NCBI GenBank assembly: GCA_028873975.1
Contig: JAPPMO010000011.1
Location: forward strand, 55,986 to 119,985
Source of the DNA: Chloroflexota bacterium
GTDB lineage: Bacteria > Chloroflexota > Anaerolineae > Aggregatilineales > Phototrophicaceae
Reading direction: 5' to 3'
Length of the DNA stretch: 64,000 nt
Positions within the stretch are counted from its first letter, which is position 1. Each line of letters starts with the position of its first letter. Position numbers and translations under genes: made by a program. Shown in pieces: positions 38,858-55,549 of this stretch. Below the pieces are notes generated by a model that was given only the letters and a program-made list of their open reading frames with translations, did not search any database and was not told where the DNA came from.

Positions 38858-40312
38858 CTACACCAATAACTCGGGCTTGTCGGAACAGATGGCATCGACG
38901 CCCAGCGCCTTCAAAGCGGCGATTTCTGATGGGCGCTCCTCATGCCAACAGACGATGCCCAATTCCGCCTTCCGCACCGCCTCTATCCACTCGGGTTTGA
39001 GCAAACGATGCGGCTCCTCGGCTCGATTTTCCCAGCAGGGATGGACGTAATCCGCCCCAATCGACTGCGCCAGCTTCACCGGATCAATATTGACAGCGCC
39101 GAACAATATCGAAGTCTGGGCATCGGATCGAGCCGCCTTTACATGGGCGAGATAATCCGGCCGGAATGAGCCGAAGATCGTGTTTCGCAGATAGTGGTGT
39201 TCATCAAGCGTCTCCAACAGCGCTACAGCCGACTGCGCGCTTAGCTGCTTGATATCCAAATACAAACCCAGGGCGAGGCGGCGGCATAAGCTGACGGCTT
39301 CTTCAAAGCTGATGATCTTGCCCTGGTTTGTATCGAAACGTCTCAACTCGTTCATGCTGTAGTCCGAGACATTGCCATCAATGCCGTAGACACGTCTCAA
39401 GCTGCTGTCATGGATGACGACCGGCACATCATCCGCGGTGGCGCGGATGTCAATTTCGACCATATCGGCGCCGAGCGCGGCGGCTGCCCGCAATGCCTCT
39501 GCCGAGTTTTCCCGGGCGTAGGCTGACGCGCCGCGATGCGCGATGCGCAACACACGCCGCTGATCTGGCGGAATCGTATGCCGCAGTTGCTCCACCCACG
39601 CGCTAATTCGTCGGGGGATCCACTCATAAAGCTGCCGCCAAGGGACCAAGATCGCCTCGCGCAGGTCAAACTCCTTTGAAAAATCGAAACTCGGCTCGAA
39701 GCGCAATCCTTCCAGATAGGTATGAACCAGGCGATTGTTGAGCGGTACCCGTTCCTGAATGATCCCTGCAAACAAAGGCGTTACATGCAGGCCCATTTTA
39801 CCGGCCCGAGGACCGCAGCTTGCCCGGGTCTGGGCTTTTCTTTCCAGCAGCCAACGGGGCGAGGGGGCAAAAGCGTGTTTGCCGGGCTCCGAATACAGCG
39901 CGGGGCGATTGTCTTCAAAACGGGGCTGCTGGCCATCATCCGCCATCCGATTGTAACCGCCATGCCAACTCGCTTCGGCATCAACCACAAGCCCGTCGCA
40001 ATCGACATAAACCCAGATATGCTCAAGTTCATAAAGATGCCCGATATCCCAATCCCACCAAATGGCGTATTCGATGGCAAAGGCGATATTTTCCTTCAGT
40101 TGGATCTCGCGAGGGAAAGAAGCCGATGAACCGCTCTCGCGGAAGAAGCTATAGCCGACAGCCGATGGCAGGAATGGCTCTTTCGCGTCAAAGCGGATAC
40201 GAGCGGCGTAGCGCAAGGCAAGCTCATGATCCGAAGGAGAGGCTACCGCTCGGTCAAGCCCCTGCAAGCGCGTATCCAGCATGGCGACAGGTTTGCTCGT
40301 CCTTACTGCCAC
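38858..40312 (-). CDS. Glycerophosphodiester phosphodiesterase with unknown N-terminal domain
   Basis: 484 residues. The C-terminal ~230 residues form a GDPD TIM barrel (RIAHRGASAYARENSAEALRAAAALG, DMVEIDIRATADDVPVVIHD, ending LKALGVDAICSDKPELL), with the HRG, EN and ED-like catalytic residues. The N-terminal ~250 residues (YAIWWDWDIGHLYELEHIWVYVD, AEASWHGGYN) are a separate domain that I do not recognise. It probably releases sn-glycerol-3-phosphate from diesters brought in by the ABC system beside it, as UgpQ does. Start: GTG 40312 overlaps the ATPase stop; ATG 40282 is the alternative. Confidence 0.85.
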   Translation of the reverse strand: MAVRTSKPVAMLDTRLQGLDRAVASPSDHELALRYAARIRFDAKEPFLPSAVGYSFFRESGSSASFPREIQLKENIAFAIEYAIWWDWDIGHLYELEHIWVYVDCDGLVVDAEASWHGGYNRMADDGQQPRFEDNRPALYSEPGKHAFAPSPRWLLERKAQTRASCGPRAGKMGLHVTPLFAGIIQERVPLNNRLVHTYLEGLRFEPSFDFSKEFDLREAILVPWRQLYEWIPRRISAWVEQLRHTIPPDQRRVLRIAHRGASAYARENSAEALRAAAALGADMVEIDIRATADDVPVVIHDSSLRRVYGIDGNVSDYSMNELRRFDTNQGKIISFEEAVSLCRRLALGLYLDIKQLSAQSAVALLETLDEHHYLRNTIFGSFRPDYLAHVKAARSDAQTSILFGAVNIDPVKLAQSIGADYVHPCWENRAEEPHRLLKPEWIEAVRKAELGIVCWHEERPSEIAALKALGVDAICSDKPELLV

Positions 40313-41382
40313 AAAAGCGATTTTTCTGTTTCCGGGTCGAAGAACTGCGCTTGTTCCATATCAAAGGCAAGCGAGACGCGCTCGCCGGCTTGGTGCCGAT
40401 CTTCCGTGTCCGCAAGCAGCAGGAAACTGTGCCGTCCCACGCGCACGTCGATCAGGTCTTCGCGCCCCAGCGGCTCAACGACAAAGATCTCGCCCGATAC
40501 CGACCCATTGCTCGCGATTTGGATATCCTCGGGCCTGATACCCATCACGACCGGACCATCATGGCTGGCAGGCGGCGCGCCGCGCTGCTCTTGTACTTCC
40601 AGGCGAAGCGACTCCGCTTCGGCGAAGAAGCGCCCATTGGACGCTTGGACGTTGACATCGACGAAGTTCATTGGCGGGTTGCCAACAAAGCCCGCGACAA
40701 ACTGCGTCTTTGGGCGGTCATATAACTCATCGGGCGAATCAAAGGCTTGCAAATGGCCGCCGCTCATCACCGCGATTCGGTCAGCCATGGTCATCGCTTC
40801 CACCTGATCGTGCGTCACGTAAATCGATGTGATGCCGAGGTCCTTCTGCAGGTGTTTGATCTCGCCACGCATCGTCAGCCGCAGCCGCGCGTCCAGATTG
40901 GACAGCGGTTCGTCAAAAAGCAGCACGTCCGGTTCTTTCACCAAAGCCCGACCCAAAGCCACCCGCTGCTGCTGCCCGCCCGACAGTTGCCCCGGTCGGC
41001 GATCCAGCAACTCCCCGATACCCATCACGTTGGCGACCTGCCGGACGCGGTCGTGTTGATCGGCTTTCGACACTTTTTTCAGTTTGAGCGGATAGGCGAT
41101 ATTCTGGAAGACGGTCATATGAGGGTAAAGCGCATAGCTCTGGAAGACCATGCCGATATTGCGGTCTTTTGGCTGGACCGTGTTGACGACGCGTTCGCCA
41201 AATTGAATGACCCCGTCCGTTGGTTTGTAGATCCCCGCCAGGGTAAGAAGCGTGGTCGTCTTCCCGCAGCCGGAAGGTCCCAAAAAGGCGACGAATTCGC
41301 CGTCTTCAATGTGCAGGGTCAAGTTCTCGACTCCGACAACGTCGCCAAATTTCTTGCTGAGATTATCGATTGTCACTTTCAT
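40303..41382 (-). CDS. ugpC: ABC transporter ATPase, UgpC/MalK family
   Basis: 359 residues. Walker A GPSGCGKTTTLL, signature LSGGQQQRVALGRAL and Walker B VLLFDEPLSNLD; the C-terminal TOBE-like regulatory domain (VVMGIRPEDIQI) is present. This is the ATPase type used by CUT1 importers including Ugp. Its GDPD neighbour overlaps its stop, supporting a Ugp-like (glycerol phosphate or diester) role. It lies 231 bases downstream of the aspartyl-protease-like gene; that gap shows no gene or clear repeat. Confidence 0.92.
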   Translation of the reverse strand: MKVTIDNLSKKFGDVVGVENLTLHIEDGEFVAFLGPSGCGKTTTLLTLAGIYKPTDGVIQFGERVVNTVQPKDRNIGMVFQSYALYPHMTVFQNIAYPLKLKKVSKADQHDRVRQVANVMGIGELLDRRPGQLSGGQQQRVALGRALVKEPDVLLFDEPLSNLDARLRLTMRGEIKHLQKDLGITSIYVTHDQVEAMTMADRIAVMSGGHLQAFDSPDELYDRPKTQFVAGFVGNPPMNFVDVNVQASNGRFFAEAESLRLEVQEQRGAPPASHDGPVVMGIRPEDIQIASNGSVSGEIFVVEPLGREDLIDVRVGRHSFLLLADTEDRHQAGERVSLAFDMEQAQFFDPETEKSLLWQ

Positions 41383-41613: not shown

Positions 41614-42129
41614 TCAATCTTTATGCGTTCCAGCGCTGGGATCATTTCGCTGACTGTCTTTGGAAGCGTCCAGGTCACCAACAAAGTCAAATTCTTCGAC
41701 AGACGGTATCCGAAACGTAAATGTCGTCCTGCCGTTAAGATTTGAAACAGCAAAGTCTCCTTGAGAGATAATGTCCATTCCAACTAAGACATCATAGTTT
41801 GTAAGCGGAAGCTGTGCTACGGGCCTACCAATCATCACCACATTGTTGGGCAGTAGCAGGTTCACATAGTGCTGGGGCACGTCAACTGAAACGCCACCCG
41901 CGTGCTGGATCGGAATCAGCGCCTCAGTTGGCAAGCCTAGATCGGTAACCATACGCTCAGTAACGGCACTGATTGTGGCGCCTGTATCCCAGAGACACTG
42001 ATATCGCACTGCGACAGGTTCGGGCTTTTCTTCTAACGGATCCCACGATGCAGAAACCGCACAGGGAGTTATCAGCGTACGCACAATTCCCGGATATCTC
42101 GTCGTAAAATTGTACTGAAGAGGAATCAT
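41614..42129 (-). CDS. Retropepsin-like aspartyl protease family protein
   Basis: 171 residues. The catalytic motif D48-T-G-A (CLWDTGATIS) and the later DVLVGMDIISQGDFAVSN match single-domain retroviral-type aspartic proteases. The protein would act as a dimer. Its start overlaps the stop of the small upstream gene (ATGA). Small gene pairs of this type are common in bacteria but their targets are unknown. It interrupts the Ugp-like operon between permease and ATPase. Confidence 0.75.
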   Translation of the reverse strand: MIPLQYNFTTRYPGIVRTLITPCAVSASWDPLEEKPEPVAVRYQCLWDTGATISAVTERMVTDLGLPTEALIPIQHAGGVSVDVPQHYVNLLLPNNVVMIGRPVAQLPLTNYDVLVGMDIISQGDFAVSNLNGRTTFTFRIPSVEEFDFVGDLDASKDSQRNDPSAGTHKD

Positions 42130-42377
42130 TTAGTCAGCACAATTCCCGGTGTGTGAATGATTCCTACATGCGCGTCTCTGCCGGATCTGATCTCCTGTAT
42201 GAAAACAGTGCCTTGTTTGTACTCAGGATACAGGTTTCTCGCGACCGCCATATAGTCGCTATAGAAACCGAGAACCTCCGTGCCTTTAATTGCAACATAC
42301 TTGCCAGCATGTTCTTTAGCCAGATCCTCGCGAATGGATTGATAGTGTTCGTACTCCTCCTTCAGCAGTGTAGTCAT
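42126..42377 (-). CDS. Small protein with DUF5678-like motif, coupled to the aspartyl protease-like gene
   Basis: 83 residues from ATG 42377 (MTTLLKEEYEHYQ); an in-frame start at 42500 is open but the GGAGGGAAAGG upstream of 42377 supports the shorter form. EHAGKYVAIKGTEVLGF resembles the DUF5678 pattern (GKYVA-x-x-G-x-x-x-G). It has a 4-base overlap with the next gene, so the two are made together. In memory, such small proteins often accompany retropepsin-like genes, perhaps as substrate or partner. Confidence 0.7.
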   Translation of the reverse strand: MTTLLKEEYEHYQSIREDLAKEHAGKYVAIKGTEVLGFYSDYMAVARNLYPEYKQGTVFIQEIRSGRDAHVGIIHTPGIVLTK

Positions 42378-42500
42378 TTGAGCTAGCCTTTCCCTCCCAA
42401 CTACATTGTACTTCAGTGCGTAGTTCCACCTATATCCAATCCCTAAAGGTTGGATATCGCTCCCATCTACAGCTATCCAGTCTCGGCGTCCCATGTTCAA

Positions 42501-44078
42501 TTAGGAGCTACCTTTCGTCCCGCCGGCATAAATGTTCAGCAGGTATTCCTGGGCGAAGATAAAGAAGATGAAAATGGGTATCAATTGGAACAAGCCGACC
42601 GCCGCCACCTGGTTCCAATCAACCGGCGCGGTTTCGTCGATCAGTTCGTTCAGGAAAACCGGCAAGTTGCTGACGCCGCTGCCGATAGAATAGGTGGCTG
42701 GAATAATATAAGCGTTCCAGCCGCCGATGAAAGCGAAAATGCCCAGCGCCAACAAACCGGGACGAATCTGCGGCAAGAGGATCTCCCAGTAAGTGCGCCA
42801 GCGAGAAGCGCCGTCTATGAGCGCCGACCGCTCCATATCCCAAGGGATGTTGTCGAAGAACCCCTTCATCAACCAAACGCCCAGCGGCAGTTGAAAAGCC
42901 ACCATGACCAGCGCGATGCCCCCTACTGTATTGAAGCCGATCAATTCGCCGATGACCGGTATGTTCCCAAGCCGCAGCAGCACAATGAAAATGGGAATGA
43001 GCAAGGTGATGGCTGGGAAGCCATGAAGGATGAGCGTGAACGAGAGAAAGAAACGCCGCCCCGGGAAGTGCATCCGCGATAAAGCATAACCCGCCATCGA
43101 CGATACCAATAACACCACGAAGGTCATTAGCACTGCGATCGCCAGTGAGGTCATGAAAATAGGGACGATATTGAATTCCAAGCCGGCGATATTGCCAACG
43201 AAGATCGACTCCCAGTTTTTCAGGGTAAAGCCGCCAAAATTGTCATTGCCATCGAGCGGCACCAGCCCCTCGGTGCGGAAGCTGAATGTCGCGATGATCA
43301 CCCAAAAATAGCCGACGATCAAAGGCGACAGCAGACCGACCAAGGCAATATAAGGCGCCCAGTGACCGGGCAAAAATACGATGATCGCGGTGAATGCCAG
43401 CGCCAGCGCCAAACCGGGCAATAAAGCGCCAATCTGCTTGTCGGAAATCAGAACGACCCGCGCCGTCTCCTGAAGTTCCTCGTCGCCGCGCGTGAAGCGC
43501 AAACGCAGCGGGTCGCCCTCCATTGACTGGCTCAGGCGCTTGTTGAAGGCTGCCAAATCCACCGCATCGCGACGAATGGCGCTGATGACATCCCCGACCT
43601 GCAAGCCAGCCGTCTCGGCCGCGCCGCCGGCGACGACGGCATCGACGCGAATGCCCGCTTCGCTCTGGCGGAGCGTCATTTGCAGGGATGCCCGCGGCGC
43701 GAATACGCCATAGTCAAGAACATAATAGCCAGCGGAAATGAGCGCGAACAATATCACCGTGCTGGTAAAAGCCAGTCCCAGCGCCTTCGCGATATCAGAT
43801 CTTGTATAGCGGCGGGCGACGCTTGCCCCGGAAATATAAGCGACAAAGGGCATCGCCAGCAAAGCGAGGCGGGTCAAAACATCCGTCACCGTCTCTTCGA
43901 CGCTGCCCAGGGCAAAAAGCGGACCAATAACCCCGCTGAACAAGAAGGCGGCGATGAGCAAAACAATAATGCTTATCGCGCCGAGCCGCAGGGCTTCCGC
44001 CAGGTCCTGCGGGAAGCTCTGCGGGCTGTCGTCGACCTTGACTTTGAGCGTATCGAAGACTGGGTCGCGGGGTTTCAT
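42501..44078 (-). CDS. ABC transporter permease (MalG/UgpE-like) with embedded PDZ domain
   Basis: 525 residues, far longer than the usual ~280 for this family. Order: three N-terminal membrane segments (about 33-58, 70-88, 98-122), a PDZ domain (about 140-212: AGIRVDAVVAGGAAETAGLQ, VGDVISAIRR, LRLRFTRGDEE), two more membrane segments (about 216-236 and 241-266), then the standard permease core with EAA loop MERSALIDGASRWRTYWEIL (415-434). The PDZ probably lies outside the membrane, where it could bind the solute-binding protein or another partner. ATG 44078 overlaps the MalF-like stop (ATGA). Confidence 0.87.
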   Translation of the reverse strand: MKPRDPVFDTLKVKVDDSPQSFPQDLAEALRLGAISIIVLLIAAFLFSGVIGPLFALGSVEETVTDVLTRLALLAMPFVAYISGASVARRYTRSDIAKALGLAFTSTVILFALISAGYYVLDYGVFAPRASLQMTLRQSEAGIRVDAVVAGGAAETAGLQVGDVISAIRRDAVDLAAFNKRLSQSMEGDPLRLRFTRGDEELQETARVVLISDKQIGALLPGLALALAFTAIIVFLPGHWAPYIALVGLLSPLIVGYFWVIIATFSFRTEGLVPLDGNDNFGGFTLKNWESIFVGNIAGLEFNIVPIFMTSLAIAVLMTFVVLLVSSMAGYALSRMHFPGRRFFLSFTLILHGFPAITLLIPIFIVLLRLGNIPVIGELIGFNTVGGIALVMVAFQLPLGVWLMKGFFDNIPWDMERSALIDGASRWRTYWEILLPQIRPGLLALGIFAFIGGWNAYIIPATYSIGSGVSNLPVFLNELIDETAPVDWNQVAAVGLFQLIPIFIFFIFAQEYLLNIYAGGTKGSS

Positions 44079-45058
44079 AGCGCTTCCACCCGAGGCTCGG
44101 CGATCAATTCGTCAAAGCGGAATACCCGCATATAAATCACCGCCAATACCACCCCGATCATCACCAGCAACACGGCGAAAGCCGAGCCGTAACCCCATTG
44201 GGCATTGCCAAAATAATTCGACAAGGCGCGGTGATATGCCGTCAGGGACCATACCTCCGTGCGATAAAGACCGGGACCGCCATCGGTCAACAACTGAATC
44301 TCGACAAATGAAGTCAACAAAGACAGCGTCTGATACGTCACGACAAAGAGCAGGGGCCAACGGATCAAAGGCATAATGACATAGCGGATGCGCTGCAACT
44401 TCGACGAACCGTCGACCAGCGAGGCGTTGAGCAGATCTTTGGGGATCGACTCGATAGCGGAGGTGAAGATGATCATGCCAAAGGACACGCCGATAAATCC
44501 ATTAACGACAACGACGAATACCCAGGGATTGGTGGAAATATAGTTGAACGTGGGCTGGCCGAGCGCCTCGTTGAATTGGTTGATAATCCCAAAGGGCGCT
44601 TCCGCTATCATTCGCTTCCAGATCAGAATGTAGACAACGGGCGAGGTGATGCGCGGCAAGATCCACAGCGCGCGAAAGACAAAGCCCGCGCTGCGGTCGA
44701 TATGCGTCGTCAGCAGGGAGACCAATAGCGCCAAGGATACATTAAAGATCGAGAGTGTAACAAGCACATAAAAGATGGTGTTAAAGAAAATCTTGCGCGC
44801 GAATTGATCGTTCAACAATGTCCGGTAGTTTTTGAGGCCGATAAATTCCATGATGGCCAGGTTGGAGGTGAAATTCGAACTCGCCAGATTGGTGACGCTT
44901 AAGTAGAGGACGATGGCGACCGGGATCAAGAAAAAGATGATGACGAGAATGCCCGCCGGCGCCATAAATCCATAGGCGCCCAGATATGATTTCAGAGCGT
45001 TGCTTCCGCCGCGGCCGCGCGAAATTGTCGCATCTCCTGTTTTTGCTCGCTCGGACAT
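44075..45058 (-). CDS. ABC transporter permease (MalF/UgpA-like)
   Basis: 327 residues, six membrane segments. EAA loop: PKDLLNASLVDGSSKLQRIRY. N-terminal YGFMAPAGILVIIFFLIPVAIVLYL and C-terminal GGPGLYRTEVWSLTAYH are typical of CUT1 permeases. The frame is open to 45163, but MSERAKTGDATIS at 45058 gives the usual short cytoplasmic start. It pairs with the PDZ-containing permease. Confidence 0.92.
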   Translation of the reverse strand: MSERAKTGDATISRGRGGSNALKSYLGAYGFMAPAGILVIIFFLIPVAIVLYLSVTNLASSNFTSNLAIMEFIGLKNYRTLLNDQFARKIFFNTIFYVLVTLSIFNVSLALLVSLLTTHIDRSAGFVFRALWILPRITSPVVYILIWKRMIAEAPFGIINQFNEALGQPTFNYISTNPWVFVVVVNGFIGVSFGMIIFTSAIESIPKDLLNASLVDGSSKLQRIRYVIMPLIRWPLLFVVTYQTLSLLTSFVEIQLLTDGGPGLYRTEVWSLTAYHRALSNYFGNAQWGYGSAFAVLLVMIGVVLAVIYMRVFRFDELIAEPRVEAL

Positions 45059-45159
45059 AAATAAAACTCGCGCCTCCCCGGATACCTGAGAGTAATGGCA
45101 AGCATTCCCGGATAGTTGCCGGAAAGACCTGCGAAAGCAGAGCCTGTCGTGGCGGTCAG

Positions 45160-45187
45160 TCAAGGGGAGCGAGGCCGCTCCCCTTGA
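45160..45187 (-). terminator. Stem-loop after the Ugp-like binding-protein gene
   Basis: TCAAGGGGAGC, 6-base loop, GCTCCCCTTGA, an 11-bp perfect stem between the binding-protein stop (45226) and the MalF-like start. It likely attenuates transcription and protects the binding-protein message. Confidence 0.7.
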
Positions 45188-45225: not shown

Positions 45226-46569
45226 CTAGCGCACTGTGATGCCGTCGCCCAATTCATTCTGCATTTGCGCGATGGCGATATCAGCCGCGCCAGCCGCGTC
45301 CGCTTCGCCGGTTTCTACCGCCTGGATCCCCAGGAAGTAAGCGTTCGACCAGGCATTCCAACCGGGATGGTTGGGCAGTGCGGTCGTATGGTCCAGCATG
45401 TAATGCGCGCTGCTCAACAGCCGGTTGTTGGCGTAAGCCTCGGATTCCAACTGCGCGTTGAGAATGCCCAGATGGAAGCTGTCAATGGCGTGCTTGTTGT
45501 TGTGCTCGGGCGTGGTGATCGCCGCGATCAGCGCCAGAGCCACATCGGGATTCTCGCTGCCGCTGCTGATCATGTAGGTAAGCGGGTGCGTCAGCGTGAT
45601 GGCTTTGCCTGTAGCCATGGCCGGGATCAGGGTCAGGCCGATATTTTCGAAGAGGAACTCATCGCCGCCCTTGTCGGCAACATAGTTGATCGACCAGTTG
45701 GGCCAGTTCCAGGTGCCGCCAGCGGCGAAGAGCACGGTATCAGCCTGGGCCACGGTCGGATGCCAGACTTCGTTCCAGTCCAGCCCGATGACATCGGAGC
45801 GCAATACGCCGGATGCGACCGCGCCGCCCAGGAGCTCGTAAGTCGCGACCAAAGCCTCGCTGTCCACGACCAGGTTGCCTTCCATATCCAGGACTTCGCC
45901 GCCATGCCCGTAGTAGTAGTAGAGGAAATCGGGACCGTTGCTCGGGCGGTGCCACCAGCCATTGCCGGCATCGACGATGCCTTCTTCAACCGCGGCTTCA
46001 GCGGTCGCCAGCATATCGGCGAAGGTCCACTCGCCAGCAGCGACGCGGTCCGGCAGCGACTCGATGTCTTCCTCGCTCCAGCCCAAGTCGCGCAGCAGCA
46101 GCTTGCTATAGAAGATGGGCCGCGCTTCGGCATCTTGCGGAATACCCCAAATCTGGCCCGCGTAGCCGTGCGAATCCCACAATGACGGCACGATGTCGTC
46201 AAATTCGCTGTGCATGCCAATCACGTCATCCAGCGGGATGATGAACCCAGCCGGCGCCCAGGCGCCAATGTCTTCGTGGCCCGACAAAATGATATCTGGC
46301 GCTTCTCCCGCTTCCGATGCCAGAACAAACTCGTTCTTGTAGTCGCCCCATCCGGCATTGTCCTGGATGAGATTCAAGTCGATATCGATACCCAAGTCGG
46401 CTTCGACTTCGGCTTCGACTTCCGCAAAATTGTTGCAGCGCCAGTCTTCTTCCGGCGGGCTGGCTTTGCAACGGATCGTGATGCCGACGGAATCTTGCGC
46501 GCCTGCAATTCCCGTCAGCATGCTCAAAAGCAGAATGAGAATCATTGTAAAACAAAGCTTGTACTTCAT
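45226..46569 (-). CDS. ABC transporter substrate-binding protein (SBP_bac_1, Ugp/CUT1 type)
   Basis: 447 residues with a Sec signal peptide (MKYKLCFTMILILLLSMLTGIAGAQ) and no lipobox Cys. Extracellular solute-binding family 1 landmarks: APDIILSGHEDIGAWAPAGFIIPLDD, IPQDAEARPIFYSKLLLRDLG, and LTHPLTYMISSGSENPDVALALI. AAGGAG lies 8 bases before ATG 46569. It would bind the glycerophosphodiester- or sugar-like ligand of the downstream importer. Ligand not determined. Confidence 0.9.
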   Translation of the reverse strand: MKYKLCFTMILILLLSMLTGIAGAQDSVGITIRCKASPPEEDWRCNNFAEVEAEVEADLGIDIDLNLIQDNAGWGDYKNEFVLASEAGEAPDIILSGHEDIGAWAPAGFIIPLDDVIGMHSEFDDIVPSLWDSHGYAGQIWGIPQDAEARPIFYSKLLLRDLGWSEEDIESLPDRVAAGEWTFADMLATAEAAVEEGIVDAGNGWWHRPSNGPDFLYYYYGHGGEVLDMEGNLVVDSEALVATYELLGGAVASGVLRSDVIGLDWNEVWHPTVAQADTVLFAAGGTWNWPNWSINYVADKGGDEFLFENIGLTLIPAMATGKAITLTHPLTYMISSGSENPDVALALIAAITTPEHNNKHAIDSFHLGILNAQLESEAYANNRLLSSAHYMLDHTTALPNHPGWNAWSNAYFLGIQAVETGEADAAGAADIAIAQMQNELGDGITVR

Positions 46570-52374: not shown

Positions 52375-53688
52375 ATGTCAATGTTGAAGAGGTTCGCATT
52401 CTTGTTGCTCATCTTGTCGCTATTGGGCGGTATCGTCTCGGCGCAAGACAGCCAGTTCCTGGAAGTTTGGGACCAGTGGGAATTCTACGGCATGACCGCG
52501 GCAGGTCCCGCGCTTGAGGTCATCCATGCTGCCTGGAACGCGGAGCATCCCAATGTCTTCATGGACCGCTCGGTCTTCGGCGGCGGTTGGCCGATTCGAA
52601 ACGCCATCGAGCTGGCTTTGACCTCCGGCGATGCGCCGGACGTCTTCTACTCCTGGCCCTCCGGCGCTGGTCTGACCGCCTACGCGCAAGAAGGTTATTT
52701 GCTCGACCTGACGCCATACGCCGACCAGTACGGCTGGTGGGATCGCCTGCCCGACTGGGCCATCGAGCGCAACATGTGGAACGGCAAGCTCTATGCCTAT
52801 CCCTGGGAGCAAGACCTCGAGTACGTCTATTACAACCAGGTCATATTTGAAGAGCTGGGCTTGGATATCCCGCAGAGCTGGGAAGACATCCTCAATTGGT
52901 GCGCCGTCGCCAATGAAGCCGGCTACATCCCGATTTCCTTCTCCAACAGCCCCGACGGCTGGCAGGGCGCCAACATGTTCACCGACATGGTCGCGCTTAC
53001 CGGCGGTCGTCAAGTTGGCCTGGACGTACTGCGCGGCGCCACCAGCTGGAACCGCCCAGAAGTGGTTGATGCCCTGGAAAAACTGCTGGAGATGGTTGAC
53101 GCCGACTGCTTCTCGCCCGGCTTCAACGGCAAGCACTATGGCGATTCGCTGGCGGAACTTTACACTGGACGCGCGACATCGGTCTGGACCGGCACCTGGG
53201 TCATCCACGATATCAGCGGCAACATGGCCGAAGGCGCCCTGGACGTCTTCTACATGCCGGCCATCTATGATGACATCCCGCAGGCAACCCACATGTCGGA
53301 GGGTTCGGCCTATTACATTTGGGCGCATGCCACTGATCCGGACCTGGCTGCCGAGTACATTGATTTCGTGACCGACCCACGCTGGCTGCCGACCTGGATT
53401 GAAGAAGGCTTCGCTATTCCCATCCAAAAGGACCCCATCGACTGGAGCATCTATGACGTCGCGCCGGTGATCGGCAAGGCTTTCCGCATCGGCCAAGAGA
53501 TGCAGGATCTCAATGTCGACGCCTTCCACACCACCGTGGCCCCCAACGTTGTTCGCGCGCTCTATCAAGGCGTGCAGGGCGTATTGGGCGGCGAATTGAG
53601 CATCGATGACTTCCTCAATAATATGGACGAGGAAATGGCAGTCGCCGCCGAGCTCGGACAGGTTTGGGAGCCGGGCGAGCGCATGTAA
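52375..53688 (+). CDS. Sugar ABC transporter substrate-binding protein (SBP_bac_1, CUT1)
   Basis: 437 residues. Sec signal peptide (MSMLKRFAFLLLILSLLGGIVSAQ) with no lipobox. Family-1 landmarks: GDAPDVFYSWPSGAGLTAYAQEG, NQVIFEELGLDIPQSWEDIL, and GRATSVWTGTWVIHDI. AGGAG lies 9 bases before ATG 52375. It belongs with the two permeases downstream; no ATPase is in the operon, so it may share the UgpC-like ATPase at 40.3 kb. Ligand likely a fructoside or sucrose, judged from the GH32 enzymes around it. Confidence 0.9.
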   Translation: MSMLKRFAFLLLILSLLGGIVSAQDSQFLEVWDQWEFYGMTAAGPALEVIHAAWNAEHPNVFMDRSVFGGGWPIRNAIELALTSGDAPDVFYSWPSGAGLTAYAQEGYLLDLTPYADQYGWWDRLPDWAIERNMWNGKLYAYPWEQDLEYVYYNQVIFEELGLDIPQSWEDILNWCAVANEAGYIPISFSNSPDGWQGANMFTDMVALTGGRQVGLDVLRGATSWNRPEVVDALEKLLEMVDADCFSPGFNGKHYGDSLAELYTGRATSVWTGTWVIHDISGNMAEGALDVFYMPAIYDDIPQATHMSEGSAYYIWAHATDPDLAAEYIDFVTDPRWLPTWIEEGFAIPIQKDPIDWSIYDVAPVIGKAFRIGQEMQDLNVDAFHTTVAPNVVRALYQGVQGVLGGELSIDDFLNNMDEEMAVAAELGQVWEPGERM

Positions 53689-54682: not shown

Positions 54683-55549
54683 ATGAATATCAAAGCCCAG
54701 CCGCGCAAAAGGCGATCCTATCAGTCCTCCCGTATCATACAAAGCATCATCATCCACGCCATCTTGCTGCTATTTGTGTTTATCGCCTTATTCCCGATTT
54801 ATCTGATGTTCAACGCCGCGCTCAAGACCTCTGCCGAATTATTCCAGAGCTTTCTCTCCCTGCCCAAGGATCCGCAATGGAAGAACTTCAGTTTCATCCT
54901 CAACGAACAAGGCTACAAGGGAGCGCTATACAACAGCATGATTCTGTCGACCTCGTCGATGATTCTGACGACTGTCATATCGGTCTTGGCAGGTTACGGC
55001 TTCGCGGTCTATCGCTTTGTCGGCAAGCAATGGCTCTTCCTGCTGGTGCTGACGGGACTGATGGTTTCCGAAACCTCGGTACTGATACCGGTATATCAAC
55101 TGCTGCAAGACCTGGGACTCTTGAACACCTACGCCGGGATGATCCTGCCGCAGGCGGCGCTGGGCTTGACCTTCGGCGTCTTTCTGATGACCACCTTTTT
55201 CAAAGACATCCCGCACGCGCTGATCGACGCCGCCGTTGTGGACGGCGGTTCCGACCTGCAGGTGCTGCGTCATGTCATCATGCCCCTGGCGCGCCCGGCC
55301 ATCATGTCGCTGGCTCTGATTGAGTTCATGTGGGCTTGGAACAGCTTCTTCTTCCCGCTGGTGATCGCCACCAAGCAATGGCTAATGCCGATGAGCGTGC
55401 GCATCATCGACTTCATGGGAAGATTCACATTCAAATACGACATGATCGCGACCACCACCGTCATCCTGTTCACGCCCATTTTGATCCTCTATCTGATTAC
55501 ACAGCGCAGTTTCCACCGCGGCATAACCTTCGGCGCGCTGAAGGACTGA
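54683..55549 (+). CDS. Sugar ABC transporter permease (MalG-like)
   Basis: 288 residues, standard length for the family. EAA loop: PHALIDAAVVDGGSDLQVLR. GAGGAG lies 7 bases before ATG 54683. A contrast with the other MalG-type permease at 42.5 kb, which is almost twice as long because of its PDZ insert. It pairs with the MalF-like protein. Confidence 0.92.
   Translation: MNIKAQPRKRRSYQSSRIIQSIIIHAILLLFVFIALFPIYLMFNAALKTSAELFQSFLSLPKDPQWKNFSFILNEQGYKGALYNSMILSTSSMILTTVISVLAGYGFAVYRFVGKQWLFLLVLTGLMVSETSVLIPVYQLLQDLGLLNTYAGMILPQAALGLTFGVFLMTTFFKDIPHALIDAAVVDGGSDLQVLRHVIMPLARPAIMSLALIEFMWAWNSFFFPLVIATKQWLMPMSVRIIDFMGRFTFKYDMIATTTVILFTPILILYLITQRSFHRGITFGALKD

Follow-up and report, generated by a model that had tools for sequence, protein, structure and literature searches.

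A PDZ domain within the MalG-type permease of a CUT1-type ABC importer from Chloroflexota

Results and discussion

The MalG-type permease of a CUT1-type ABC importer in a Chloroflexota bacterium carries, ahead of its usual core, an N-terminal membrane module that includes a predicted PDZ domain of the HtrA type. The gene lies in a 64,000-nucleotide stretch of contig JAPPMO010000011.1 (assembly GCA_028873975.1), which is referred to here as the window. Sequence comparison and structure prediction demonstrate the predicted fold, its fusion to the permease, the inheritance of the fusion, and purifying selection on the domain. As to function, recruitment of an exported partner protein to the importer is tentatively regarded as the most likely role of the PDZ domain, ahead of quality control, a structural role, and docking of a protein tail.

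Architecture of the permease

The protein matches BPD_transp_1, contains an EAA loop (a motif that we take to mark the class), and is encoded adjacent to genes for a MalF-type permease, a solute-binding protein and a MalK-type ATPase (Table 1), as expected of a MalG-type CUT1 permease. An initial annotation made from the window alone had called it a MalG/UgpE-type protein. The MalG-type part of this label is retained on the basis of BPD_transp_1 and genomic context, but the score for the NCBIfam UgpE equivalog is below its cut-off (59.9 versus 297 bits). The cut-off for the MalG equivalog is likewise not reached (99.6 versus 261 bits).

Table 1. Features of the PDZ-permease operon in the window (window coordinates)
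Feature	Coordinates	Strand	Basis or remark
PDZ-MalG permease, 525 aa	42501..44078	-	Fused form in 49 of the 51 order genomes that have the core
Extra membrane helices TM1-TM3, residues 22-121	43716..44015	-	AlphaFold2 helices 22-56, 64-91, 96-121
HtrA-type PDZ domain, residues 127-212, predicted extracellular	43443..43700	-	Pfam PDZ_2, AlphaFold2, structure match
Extra membrane helix TM4, residues 216-235	43374..43433	-	AlphaFold2 helix
MalG-type core, residues 238-525, which includes the TM1 of the permease and the EAA loop	42504..43367	-	BPD_transp_1, SugB/MalG structures, alignment of PDZ-less orthologues
MalF-type partner permease of ordinary length; its start codon is uncertain	44075..45163	-	Stop overlaps malG start
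MalE-like solute-binding protein with a signal peptide, no lipobox and a C-tail predicted to be folded	45226..46569	-	Pfam SBP_bac_1
MalK/UgpC-type ATPase	40303..41382	-	Profile matches
GDPD enzyme, N-terminal region of about 250 aa without Pfam match	38858..40312	-	In some family operons only

Alignments of PDZ-less orthologues begin at approximately window residue 237-256, and the match to the SugB structure begins at residue 249, so the helix at residues 238-269 corresponds to the first helix of the permease core. Because this helix is the permease's own TM1, the added module comprises three transmembrane (TM) helices, the PDZ domain and one more TM helix, or about 236 residues. The initial annotation had proposed about 280 extra residues containing five extra segments. 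The extension is real but shorter, and three segments before the PDZ domain and one after it are retained, whereas the fifth is the TM1 of the core.

The malG start codon is an ATG that overlaps the malF stop codon. A wrong start codon or a misassembly as the source of the long form was rejected, and that form is conserved across genomes of the order. TTG and GTG codons do occur near residue 236, and it is possible that an additional short permease product is made from one of them. Within the genome there are 77 matches to the whole permease, and the window gene is the only one that matches over its full length. The other importer in the window has ordinary permeases; the standard length of its MalG-type member (54683-55549) had been noted at the outset.

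Conservation of the PDZ domain

The PDZ domain scores 27.7 and 29.1 bits against the Pfam PDZ_2 model, above the curated cut-off of 27, and residues 127-212 adopt a PDZ fold in the AlphaFold2 model of the permease. In structure comparisons, the nearest folds to the predicted domain are the PDZ domains of HtrA, DegS and DegP. The fold and the structure match reject chance similarity, and with the Pfam score they uphold the original proposal that a PDZ domain resides within a MalG-type permease. The Pfam matches of the permease include no protease family. Its match to the NCBIfam degP_htrA_DO model covers the PDZ domain only and scores 24.7 bits against a cut-off of 416.2.

Ratios of dN/dS between the window gene and those of seven genus mates are 0.10-0.27 for the PDZ domain (all seven pairs) and 0.005-0.054 for the core. 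Across 17 sequences from the order, mean identity to the window protein is 47% for the PDZ domain, 28% for TM1-3, 34% for TM4 and 75% for the main core. Together, these values indicate that selection on the domain is looser than that on the core and stronger than that on the membrane helices that anchor it; as judged from these comparisons, the PDZ domain is under purifying selection. Seven of its residues (G142, A154, G162, D163, R170, R194 and R197) do not vary among 21 sequences.

A separate 461-residue frame of the same genome (L128:1588-2970, plus strand) has a start resembling a signal peptide and four PDZ_2 stretches.

Membrane topology and cell envelope

The first helix of the MalG fold presumably starts on the inside, so TM4 would run from outside to inside and the PDZ domain would lie outside. 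Charges in 21 sequences mostly agree with this arrangement. The TM2-TM3 loop has two to four basic residues in all 21 and a positive net charge in 20; the net charge is negative for the TM1-TM2 loop in 20 and for the PDZ domain in all 21. However, the N-terminal tail, for which an inside location is expected, has a positive net charge in only 6, and thus breaks the positive-inside rule in 15. The sequences therefore make the outer face of the membrane the most likely location of the PDZ domain, and the initial placement outside is supported rather than proven by helix parity and loop charges, with the charges of the N-terminal tail to the contrary.

A search for Omp85 gave no match in this genome, and the control search matched in 7 of 14 named genomes. 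Judging from this result, the lineage is probably monoderm. The outside would then probably be the cell exterior, and a binding protein that is not anchored probably has no outer membrane to retain it.

Distribution and origin of the fusion

When 154 genomes of the order were screened by scoring 15 first-look candidates per genome, the permease core was found in 51 (E <= 1e-75), so the importer as a whole is patchily distributed. The N-terminal module is present in 49 of these 51: the genus accounts for 28 (it has 34 genomes), the rest of the family for 13, and two other families for 8. The two exceptions are G126, in which only a 182-aa piece was seen, and G040, which has no PDZ domain and a different insert. 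This insert in the G040 permease (L057:3460-4650, minus strand) amounts to about 80 residues with hydrophobic stretches and follows the first helix.

A draw of 396 genomes from the class (6 first-look candidates scored per genome) yielded 49 with the core. Frames of the size of the PDZ permease were found in 13 of these, all in the same order as the window, and the other 36 have open frames of 286-409 residues. The module is in none of the 37 PDZ-less loci that were read, out of 38 (G269 was left out). Among 400 genomes of the phylum, with at most 6 first-look candidates each, 11 matched, and only the window's own genome did so along the module; two of the remaining matches cover the permease TM1 region only, and eight cover mainly the PDZ region. 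A contig scan that used a single pattern, taken from the permease TM1 region, returned 23 loci, of which 16 have the module and 7 lack it. Named relatives are metagenome-assembled genomes (MAGs) of Anaerolineae and other Chloroflexota, and one that is labelled Bacteroidetes. Loci L129-L151 include contigs that also occur in the genome sets, and the orthologue comparisons that involve them are not independent.

In a midpoint-rooted tree of 57 cores, from which five PDZ-less rows were left out because the start pattern missed them, a single branch has all 24 PDZ rows on one side (support 100/93; 99% of 200 bootstrap trees). The long-branched G040 row adjoins them, and its placement is taken with reserve. 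With all PDZ rows on one side and G040 beside them, the simplest reading of these sequences would be a single gain of the module after the split from the line leading to G040.

Operon context

The gene order of binding protein, MalF and MalG is the same in 20 of 20 loci, including the PDZ-less G040 locus. The MalK gene is next in 19 of the 20, and the contig of the remaining locus (L047) ends. The GDPD gene is next in L053, L054 and L056 and in the genus loci L058 and L059, and does not follow in the others where the DNA is visible. In L045/L136, which are one contig, a homologue of the GDPD N-terminal region (39549-40312 in the window, minus strand) occurs by itself on the opposite strand.

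In the window, genes for a DUF5678 protein and a retropepsin-like aspartyl protease (41614-42500, minus strand) are located between the PDZ-malG gene and malK. Among the genus loci, this pair occurs only in the window (L009) and in L019 (genome G010), and the others with readable downstream DNA continue straight to malK. The binding-protein gene is split into two frames in G047 (L056:6295-7664) and in G383 (L178:1231-2817), which reflects either assembly error or decay.

Possible functions of the PDZ domain

In the preferred reading, the MalG subunit of a CUT1-type importer (binding protein, MalF, MalG and MalK) acquired a membrane module at its N-terminus, most simply in a single event, and this module bears the HtrA-type PDZ domain. 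By analogy with the P2 region of MalF, we infer that the PDZ domain would serve as a built-in recruitment arm that holds a partner beside the mouth of the importer. The candidate partner is the solute-binding protein, gripped away from its C-terminal tail, or another exported protein. It is possible that the PDZ domain contacts another part of the binding-protein surface, as MalF P2 does with MalE. The conserved gene order of binding protein, MalF and MalG and the lack of an Omp85 match were counted in favor of recruitment. Counted against it were that other importers of the genome seemingly manage without a PDZ domain and that the binding protein does not end in a free hydrophobic tail. A fuller version of the recruitment idea, in which the domain is an extracellular scaffold on which the binding protein, or else another exported protein, forms a surface complex at the pore, is plausible but is put forward with still more reserve; the lineage would be one that is probably monoderm and has lost the lipid anchors of its binding proteins.

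Among bacterial proteins, proteases are the best-known carriers of PDZ domains. The domain of the permease might bind peptides that are exposed or misfolded in the vicinity of the importer, and so link the importer to envelope proteases or quality control, as in HtrA. The closest folds are consistent with such a role, and in a 2019 survey of microbial PDZ proteins, 88% of the classified proteins are joined to protease domains (PMC6411480). However, the permease protein has no protease domain, no protease gene was noticed as common to the operons (the queries being the eight operon proteins of the window only), and the window owes its aspartyl-protease gene to a local insertion. Quality control is considered an unlikely role.

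An equally doubtful alternative is that the module is mainly structural, with the four helices and the PDZ domain stabilizing or spacing the transporter without any peptide ligand. At residues 131-139 and 174-185, which form the predicted ligand groove, conservation is lower than in the remainder of the domain (0.43 versus 0.54 in the 21 sequences). Moreover, the loop that putatively holds a carboxylate is mostly S-L-Q/E-M/F, in which the middle glycine of the GLGF-type loop, which we take to be the carboxylate-binding motif, is replaced by Q or E in 20 of 21 sequences and kept in one. Both observations favor a structural role and were counted against recruitment, and peptide binding by the domain is putative. 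Against a structural role, loop positions 132 (L/I/V) and 134 (M/F) are hydrophobic in all 21 sequences, and conservation across the order is lower in the helices than in the PDZ domain.

The least probable of these explanations, and one for which we see little prospect, is that the PDZ domain holds the binding protein of its own operon by the C-terminal tail and thereby makes up for a lost lipid anchor. The probable location of the domain outside the cell membrane would suit this arrangement, and the binding protein has a signal peptide and no lipobox, in line with the initial annotation, which had given it no lipid anchor. Lipoboxes, scored by eye on N-termini and with a simple pattern, were found in all 29 readable binding proteins from 37 loci with PDZ-less operons of other orders (the other 8 have no readable binding-protein N-terminus), versus none of the 19 readable ones from 20 PDZ operons. 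This contrast, which also favors docking, nevertheless follows lineage rather than the importer. None of the 65 SBP_bac_1 proteins of the window's own genome has a clear lipobox; four match the pattern away from the end of a signal peptide, one of which, C27, is ambiguous (its cysteine is inside the hydrophobic stretch), and C88 has no signal peptide in the segment read. Six other PDZ-bearing genomes gave no lipobox in 30 binding proteins read, out of 206 matches (one of the 30, L222, has an internal cysteine similar to that of C27). The PDZ-less order-mate G040 gave none in 15 read, out of 19, with one start cut by a contig end; the binding protein of this operon itself is cut in G040 in this way, and its lipobox status is not readable. 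By comparison, G433, from another order, has lipoboxes in all 15 read, out of 70. The contrast is thus confounded by descent, and lipobox loss as a feature of the PDZ operon was rejected because it is common to the lineage. Within the window, the binding protein of the second importer (52375-53688) also has no lipobox, beside ordinary permeases, and the rationale that a missing anchor calls for a docking domain is not supported.

The lipobox pattern, with no clear lipobox in the binding proteins read in this order and lipoboxes in those read in other orders of the class, exists despite the presence of Lgt and LspA genes. Lgt was matched in 61 of 61 genomes searched and LspA in the window's own genome, and loss of the lipoprotein pathway as a cause of the missing lipoboxes was not supported. 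In the window genus, the match of Lgt to its profile is broken in two by an insert (G000:C56:62770-63744 and genus mates).

The tails themselves also argue against docking. The last residue is R, K or Q in all 43 binding proteins of PDZ operons that were read, which come from 26 of the 27 genus loci and all 17 order loci; the 33 read from PDZ-less operons end in R, E, K or Q after a similar aliphatic stretch. The end of the window's binding protein is modelled as a confident strand (residues 444-446, last block pLDDT 95). These endings, their likeness to those of PDZ-less operons, and the folded tail make a canonical contact between PDZ domain and tail unlikely, and the tail is disfavored as a canonical ligand.

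Relationship to known systems and significance

Recruitment by the PDZ domain would have a counterpart in the E. coli importer MalFGK2, which is likewise of the CUT1 type and has an extracytoplasmic domain on a permease subunit. This domain, MalF P2, contacts MalE. It belongs to MalF and has a different fold from PDZ, whereas the window protein has its PDZ domain on MalG. The contact between MalF P2 and MalE is indicated by the titles of two references cited in PMC3328499. The mycobacterial trehalose importer subunit SugB (8ja7, 7cad) shares the core and is the best-scoring solved relative by sequence, but its match is limited to window residues 249-523 and it lacks the N-terminal module. The PDZ domains of HtrA, DegS and DegP are linked to proteases, whereas the window protein has no protease domain and the loop glycine is replaced as described. 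Orthologous importers in other orders of the class (L145-L151 and G433) have the same gene order and a core identity of approximately 51-62%. They lack the PDZ module, and their binding proteins have a lipobox, usually followed by a linker.

A full-text search of open-licence papers revealed none that describes a fusion of PDZ and ABC permease in its title or abstract. The terms permease, transporter and ABC are absent from the main text of the 2019 survey, in which 7% of proteins are unclassified (PMC6411480).

Because the PDZ domain is borne by the importer across the order, it allows a natural comparison with PDZ-less orthologues. The PDZ importer also offers a route to asking how cells that seemingly have no outer membrane retain unanchored binding proteins near their transporters.
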